64,000 bases of DNA from Pseudomonadota bacterium (lineage in GTDB: Bacteria; Pseudomonadota; Alphaproteobacteria; Caulobacterales; Caulobacteraceae): contig CAUJHO010000013.1 of the NCBI GenBank assembly GCA_963205025.1, positions 1-64,000 on the forward strand, given 5' to 3'. Below, piece after piece: positions 8,717-58,336 of this stretch (positions are counted from its first letter, which is position 1; the number at the start of each line of letters is the position of its first letter). Below the pieces are notes generated by a model that saw nothing but the letters and a program-made list of their open reading frames with translations, did no database searches and was not told where the DNA came from. The position numbers were made by a program, and so were the translations under genes.

Positions 8717-8768
8717 GTCGCAGCGCAGGATGTGGCGGCCAGCCGTATTAGGGACGGACGCGCTAGAG

Positions 8769-9182
8769 ATGGCTTCAGACTCTACGAACGAACGCAGGCC
8801 AAATCCAATCGATATTCACGTTGGATCTCGCGTGCGAATGCGGCGAAAACTCATGGGCGTCAGCCAGGAGAAACTCGCCGAGGCGCTCGGCCTGACCTTT
8901 CAGCAGGTCCAGAAATACGAGCGCGGCGTGAATCGGGTGTCGGCCTCCAAACTGTTTGAAACGTCGAATTTCCTGGGTGTCGACGTCAGCTATTTCTTCG
9001 ATGGCCTGGCCAATCGGGATCCGGCGTCGGGCTTTGCCGAGAGCGAATCCGAACGCTTTACGCACGAGTTCCTGATGACCACCGAAGGGGTTGAGCTGGC
9101 CTCGCTCTTCCCGAGGCTGGCGGCCAAGCAGCGTCGGCGAATTCTCGAGCTGGTACGGACCCTGGCTGACGACGACGACTGA
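8769..9182 (+). CDS. XRE-family transcriptional regulator (lnt-metK intergenic type)
   Basis: 137 residues, taking the ATG at 8769 (MASDSTNERRPNPIDIHVG); an in-frame ATG at 8730 would add 13 poorly conserved residues. The HTH spans ~21-75 (VGSRVRMRRKLMGVSQEKLAEALGLTFQQVQKYERGVNRVSASKL), and the C-terminus ends in ELVRTLADDDD. Rhizobial PhrR/PraR-type regulators have the same architecture and also sit near lnt and metK, which suggests orthology (from memory). The target is unknown, and the conserved position says nothing definite about control of metK. Confidence 0.88.
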   Translation: MASDSTNERRPNPIDIHVGSRVRMRRKLMGVSQEKLAEALGLTFQQVQKYERGVNRVSASKLFETSNFLGVDVSYFFDGLANRDPASGFAESESERFTHEFLMTTEGVELASLFPRLAAKQRRRILELVRTLADDDD

Positions 9183-9195
9183 TTTCGCTCGTCGC

Positions 9196-9224
9196 TTGCG
9201 GATATAAGGACATCTTTATATGTT
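9196..9224 (+). promoter_or_regulatory. metK promoter with embedded palindromic operator
   Basis: A candidate -35 TTGCGG (9196-9201) and -10 TATGTT (9219-9224) are 17 bases apart. The 22-base imperfect palindrome at 9201-9222 (left half GATATAAGGAC, right half ATCTTTATATG; 8 of 11 positions pair) fills the spacer and overlaps the -10. A perfect version lies in front of ahcY at 58315-58336. This placement would suit a repressor. The ArsR-type SAH-responsive regulator SahR is a candidate; I cannot confirm its site here. Confidence 0.7.
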
Positions 9225-9254
9225 CCGCGCGCCTTTTCACAGGAGAGCGCGCGC

Positions 9255-10448
9255 GTGAGCCGGACGTCCTTTATCTTCACCTCCGAGAGTGTCTCGGAAG
9301 GCCATCCCGACAAGGTCGCGGATCGCATTTCTGATACAATCGTCGATCTGTTCCTTGCCCGGGATCCTGAAGCGCGCGTCGCGTGTGAGACCCTGACGAC
9401 GACCAATCTGGTGGTCATTGCCGGTGAGATTCGCGGCAAGGGGATCATGGACACGGCGGGCAACTGGGCCCCCGGCGTCCAAGAGGAGATCGAGGCGGCC
9501 GTCCGTCAGGCCGTCAAGGACATCGGCTACGCCCAGTCCGGCTTCCATTGGGAAACCTTCCGGTTCGAGAACCATCTGCATCCGCAGTCGGCCGACATCG
9601 CCGTCGGCGTGGATTCCGCCGGCAACAAGGACGAGGGTGCCGGCGACCAGGGCATCATGTTCGGCTATGCGTCGAACGAAACCGAAGAGTTGATGCCGGC
9701 GACGCTGCAGTACAGTCAGAACATCCTGCGCCGGCTGGCCGCCCTGCGTCACGGCGGCGAGCGCCGCCTGGAACCGGACGCCAAGAGCCAGGTCAGCCTG
9801 TTCTACGAGAACGGCAAGCCCGTGCGCGCGACCTCCATCGTCGTTTCGACCCAGCACGCCGCCGGCCTGACCCAGGCCCAGGTGCGCGAGGTCGTCGAAC
9901 CGGTCGTGCGCGAGGTCCTGCCGGCCAGCTTCATCACCGACGAGACCGTCTGGCACATCAATCCGACCGGCATTTTCGAGATCGGCGGCCCCGATGGTGA
10001 CGCCGGCCTGACCGGGCGCAAGATCATCGTCGACACCTATGGCGGGGCCGCCCCGCACGGCGGCGGGGCCTTTTCGGGCAAGGATCCGACCAAGGTGGAT
10101 CGCTCGGCGGCCTATGCCGCCCGTTATCTGGCCAAGAATGTCGTCGCCGCCGGCCTGGCGGACCGCTGCACCATCCAGCTCAGCTATGCCATTGGCGTGG
10201 CCGAACCGCAGTCGGTCCACGTCGACCTGCACGGCACGGGCCGCATCGAGGCTGAAATTCTGGAGCGTGAACTACCGGCCATGATCGGCGGGGCCACGCC
10301 GCGCGCCATCCGCGAACACCTGGGCCTGAACCGCCCGATCTATGCGCGCACGACCGCCTATGGCCATTTCGGGCAGGCCCCGGACGCCGACGGCGGCTTC
10401 TCGTGGGAACGCACCGATCTGGTCGACCGGTTGAAGGCCCTGGCCTAG
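9255..10448 (+). CDS. metK: S-adenosylmethionine synthetase
   Basis: 397 residues with a GTG start preceded by AGGAG nine bases upstream. Family signatures include [20 protein letters not shown] at the N-terminus, the [12 protein letters not shown] hexapeptide region (~128-139) and the loop [19 protein letters not shown] (~270-290). MetK makes SAM from methionine and ATP. The start lies 32 bases after an operator-like palindrome shared with ahcY, so production and recycling of SAM are probably co-regulated. Codon use and GC match the neighbours. Confidence 0.98.
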
Positions 10449-24113: not shown

Positions 24114-24129
24114 TGTTTCACGTGAAACA
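24114..24129 (+). other. parS site 1
   Basis: TGTTTCACGTGAAACA, an exact match to the 16-bp ParB-binding parS consensus. It lies between pnp and the DUF6489 gene, about 4 kb from parA-parB and 26 kb from the predicted oriC. ParB loads here and spreads to build the segregation complex. Confidence 0.96.
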
Positions 24130-25712: not shown

Positions 25713-25728
25713 TGTTTCACGTGAAACA
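25713..25728 (+). other. parS site 2
   Basis: A second exact TGTTTCACGTGAAACA, five bases after the mnmE stop and 1,599 bases from site 1, in the mnmE-mnmG gap. Two perfect copies this close make chance occurrence very unlikely. Confidence 0.96.
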
Positions 25729-56840: not shown

Positions 56841-58238
<1,398 letters not shown>

Positions 58239-58281: not shown

Positions 58282-58310
58282 CCTATAGCCGTCCCCAGGG
58301 AGACGGGCAA
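58282..58310 (-). promoter_or_regulatory. ahcY promoter
   Basis: TTGCCC (58310-58305) and TATAGG (58287-58282) on the minus strand are 17 bases apart; the -10 context GGCTATAGG fits the Caulobacter GCTANAWC-like style. The start codon follows 43 bases downstream of the -10. The palindromic operator sits four bases upstream of the -35. Confidence 0.55.
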
Positions 58311-58314
58311 CCAT

Positions 58315-58336
58315 CATATAAGGATATCCTTATATG
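58315..58336. promoter_or_regulatory. perfect 22-bp palindromic operator upstream of ahcY
   Basis: CATATAAGGAT followed directly by its exact reverse complement ATCCTTATATG. An 8-of-11 paired relative overlaps the metK promoter. AT-rich palindromes like this are rare in this GC-rich sequence, and both lie in front of SAM-cycle genes. An ArsR-type SAH-responsive regulator (SahR) is a plausible binder. One base separates it from the stop codon of the M61-like gene. Confidence 0.85.

Follow-up and report, generated by a model that had tools for sequence, protein, structure and literature searches.

The metK gene of this caulobacterial genome is preceded by a short AT-rich palindrome, and the question raised by the locus is whether this element is an operator at all and, if so, which protein would occupy it and with what consequence for the synthesis of S-adenosylmethionine (SAM). 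The window analyzed here is the whole stretch of 64,000 nucleotides; metK starts within it from the GTG codon at 9255, preceded by AGGAGA, and the following features of the region are relevant (the operator and promoter elements being predicted):

9196..9201, + strand: predicted metK -35 hexamer TTGCGG (TTG at operator offset -6 in 18/18 genus members)
9202..9221, no strand assigned: predicted SahR-type operator of metK, ATATAAGGACATCTTTATAT (self-complementarity, pattern searches in window and genome, conservation)
9219..9224, + strand: predicted metK -10 hexamer TATGTT, overlapping the operator (17-nt spacing kept in 18/18 genus members)
9241..9246, + strand: metK ribosome-binding site AGGAGA (sequence)
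9255..10448, + strand: metK, methionine adenosyltransferase (TIGR01034, E 2.4e-137)

The sequence-only reading had placed an AT-rich palindrome at 9201-9222, where the letters are GATATAAGGACATCTTTATATG. The palindrome is there, but the outermost pair G9201/G9222 is mismatched, so that the symmetric core comprises 20 bp (9202-9221, self-complementary at 16 of 20 positions) and not 22. The sharp contrast with a GC-rich background, pointed out in the same reading, is evident from a GC content of 20% as compared to 66.3% for the window, and 20-mers with 25% GC or less occur at five places only in the 64 kb, the metK and ahcY sites being among them. When the ahcY-type 20-mer was used as a query and up to 3 mismatches were allowed, these two sites were the sole matches in the window, while 100 shuffles of the window gave none. 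A looser pattern of the motif, again with up to 3 mismatches, revealed exactly three sites in the genome of 2.54 Mb, located in front of metK, ahcY and the sahR operon; the reversed pattern, taken as a control, had no match across the same genome. The metK palindrome is thus a real site and not a product of chance. Its counterpart at ahcY is arranged as follows:

56844..58238, - strand: ahcY, adenosylhomocysteinase (TIGR00936, E 6.4e-176)
58282..58287, - strand: predicted ahcY -10 hexamer TATAGG, 17-nt spacing (sequence and relatives)
58305..58310, - strand: predicted ahcY -35 hexamer TTGCCC, 5 nt downstream of the operator (sequence and relatives)
58316..58335, no strand assigned: predicted SahR-type operator of ahcY, perfect palindrome ATATAAGGATATCCTTATAT (pattern searches in window and genome)

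The description of the metK site as a degenerate copy of the perfect ahcY palindrome is valid for this genome, whereas in relatives the relation is usually reversed, the metK site being a perfect fit to the consensus and the ahcY site a poorer one. Elsewhere in the window, two perfect copies of TGTTTCACGTGAAACA, which we take to be the ParB-binding parS consensus, lie 1.6 kb apart at 24114-24129 and 25713-25728 (chance expectation about 0.01), and the window is probably located near the replication origin.

Scanning with the plain E. coli-type or strict sigma-70 consensus detected no promoter at the metK site, which we ascribe to weakness of the hexamers in this species, and the literature was searched for maps of the ahcY and metK promoters in Caulobacter with no usable result. 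The metK hexamers were assigned from conservation in relatives, with the operator as an anchor. In every one of the 18 genus members, this genome included, TTG directly precedes the operator and is followed at 17-nt spacing by a -10-like hexamer, the -35 element being TTGAAC in most congeners as opposed to TTGCGG here. With these distances the metK operator would fill the spacer and enter the -10, in agreement with its initial placement between the two hexamers, and the predicted arrangement, with transcription starting near 9231, is the classical position of a repressor. The metK loci of Sphingomonadales offer a different picture: there a -10-like hexamer, as read by eye, apparently lies just before the operator, an arrangement that would put the operator over the transcription start instead of the spacer.

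The third genomic site points to the protein that may bind all of them. It precedes, by 6 nt, the ATG codon from which a two-domain regulator of 320 residues is translated, which combines an ArsR-type HTH (PF01022, E 1e-14) with a C-terminal methyltransferase fold (Methyltransf_11, PF08241, E 2.6e-23). This regulator heads the operon sahR-metF-metH-metH2, all genes being on the same strand; those after sahR, named from their translations, are presumably metF and the homocysteine-methyltransferase and cobalamin/reactivation parts of metH. Thus an ArsR-family regulator is encoded in the same genome with the operator at its own start, 20-bp palindromic operators precede SAM-cycle genes at three sites, and the core targets sahR, metF, metH, metH2, ahcY and metK are all present, as is characteristic of a SahR regulon. 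Judged from these sequence features, the metK palindrome is almost certainly a SahR operator. A SahR/ArsR homologue had been suggested as the binder from the outset, together with the expectation that the motif would recur before other genes of methionine metabolism and the SAM cycle; the genome scan bears this out for ahcY and the sahR-metF-metH operon, and it revealed none at a metE, which had been named as one further possible target. The promoter of sahR also appears to be covered, since TTG is found at operator offset -10 in 27 of 30 sequences (usually as TTGC) and the 17-nt spacing places the predicted -10 inside the right arm of the operator. Transcription is then expected to start at or beside the ATG, so that the sahR transcript is probably leaderless. 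Leaderless mRNAs are common in Caulobacter, with 375 cases described (PMC4117421). The distance from the operator end to the sahR ATG is near-constant at 6 nt in relatives, extending the leaderless prediction across the genus.

Conservation was assessed in 61 genomes, namely this one and 60 relatives. A SahR homologue is encoded in 60 of the 61, and the operator motif is present in 55. In front of metK the site occurs in all 18 genus members and deviates from the consensus at one position at most, in contrast to the columns on either side, the majority of which vary, and it is present in a drifted form in several other families (for example in f3 and f5 and in named Sphingomonas, Sphingobium and Phenylobacterium genomes), so the anticipated conservation upstream of metK in relatives does hold. 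Family f2, which belongs to the same order, keeps SahR, and its sahR, ahcY and metK regions mostly have a diverged motif or none, which means that the motif drifts; motif and regulator may possibly be changing together in this family. One drifted site of f2, GTATAAAGGAACATTGATAT, lies just before ahcY, and metK and ahcY are close together in two f2 genomes. At the level of the class, SahR homologues were found in 15 of 30 other members with 46-54% identity, and 12 of these 15 SahR-bearing genomes have the motif (up to 2 mismatches) upstream of sahR.

Taken together, the predicted sites very probably serve for repression of metK, ahcY and sahR-metF-metH-metH2 by SahR, relieved by S-adenosylhomocysteine (SAH). 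With a SahR dimer on 9202-9221, the spacer and -10 of the metK promoter would be occupied and thereby closed to RNA polymerase; accumulating SAH would bind to the methyltransferase-like domain and release the protein, and this release would switch on SAH removal (ahcY), remethylation (metF, metH) and SAM synthesis (metK) together. Binding to the three sites, SAH as the ligand and repression as the effect are all what we infer for this system. It is favored by the location of all three genomic sites at SAM-cycle transcription units, with none in the control, while weakness of the metK hexamers in this genome and location of the ahcY operator upstream of the -35, where it is less obviously blocking, as well as the lack of the close motif in f2 despite its retention of SahR, speak against it.

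The latter circumstance leaves room for a dual mode of action, in which SahR, when bound over the -10, acts as a repressor of metK and of the operon that it heads, and as an activator of ahcY, where its site is just upstream of the -35. At ahcY a conserved promoter of the type TTG-N17-TATA indeed follows the operator, which in most cases precedes the -35 or directly adjoins it: among 63 ahcY regions with an operator, sampled class-wide, the best-scoring promoter has its TTG between +24 and +26 in 34, and in the order-level set TTG is exactly at +25 in 18 of 22 sequences. This spacing, however, is not phase-locked, as six of the 63 regions have an abutting -35 at +20, displaced by roughly half a turn of the helix, which argues against a phase-dependent activator, and in other lineages the best-scoring promoter is located elsewhere relative to the operator. 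Moreover, the core promoter of ahcY is at least as strong as its metK counterpart, the footprint of a protein on a 20-bp site that stops 5 nt short of the -35 can be wide enough to block this hexamer, and activation of ahcY by SAH-free SahR would oppose the need for AhcY at high SAH. Simple occlusion of the -35 by SahR is therefore more likely for ahcY than phase-dependent activation, and it appears unlikely that near-identical operators support two modes, repression at metK and sahR and activation or another non-steric mechanism at ahcY. Were it nevertheless so, the methyl cycle would be controlled differentially and not uniformly.

Candidates other than SahR are far less probable. One might consider the XRE-family protein whose gene (8730-9182) immediately precedes metK as a local regulator acting at the metK operator, for it is of DNA-binding type (HTH_3, E 7.5e-13) and its gene is next to metK in many alphaproteobacteria. 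Against this, 17 congeners have the metK operator and no XRE gene in the roughly 1.5 kb in front of metK, more than 30 other alphaproteobacterial metK loci have the XRE gene without the operator, and further copies of the motif are located at ahcY and the sahR operon, distant from the XRE gene. Since gene and operator occur independently, the XRE protein was rejected as the binder, its role at this site being very improbable; its gene is an old neighbor of metK in alphaproteobacteria. The local order here is lnt-XRE-metK-trmB, while in the 17 congeners neither XRE nor lnt is the immediate upstream neighbor of metK; the operator has stayed with metK through this change of neighbors. Still less credible is that the palindrome, AT-rich and overlapping the promoter as it is, represents mere promoter DNA or an RNA element such as a riboswitch or attenuator: it precedes the predicted transcription start, and three near-identical 20-bp copies are present genome-wide, all at SAM-cycle units. 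An Rfam search at gathering thresholds gave no family match anywhere in the window, and control of metK by a SAM/SAH riboswitch was rejected in view of the lack of such a match in the metK leader.

The predicted control by SahR thus ties SAM synthesis in this lineage to a SAH-sensing regulon, and the exact operator, predicted promoter geometry and candidate regulator are now defined for metK. As the operator is placed to block at metK and sahR and lies upstream at ahcY, uniformity of the response among targets becomes testable. The kind of system is already known for this bacterial order and the site is ordinary for the group: a SahR regulon of Alphaproteobacteria including Caulobacterales was reported by Leyn et al. 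(2014; PMC4239095), and, as far as the available part of that report goes, the present case is alike in the 20-bp palindrome and in the ArsR-type regulator under its own control and has the same targets (sahR, metF, metH, metH2, ahcY and metK), with no difference established and with promoter geometry, as measured here, not discussed there. Autorepression is supported by Ensifer aridi, whose sahR promoter reaches its highest activity in a sahR deletion strain (PMC8877191). SahR of Desulfovibrio alaskensis, cited in PMC4239095 and PMC8877191 as a SAH-responsive repressor of the ArsR family, has the same role and gene set as predicted here, although a slight difference is reported between the motifs of alpha- and deltaproteobacteria. 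SamR of Xanthomonadales, a distant homologue of SahR, controls metK and metF among others, yet, according to PMC4239095, from a 24-bp motif and in a regulon without other SAM-cycle genes such as ahcY, whereas here it is the ahcY site that is the best in the genome.
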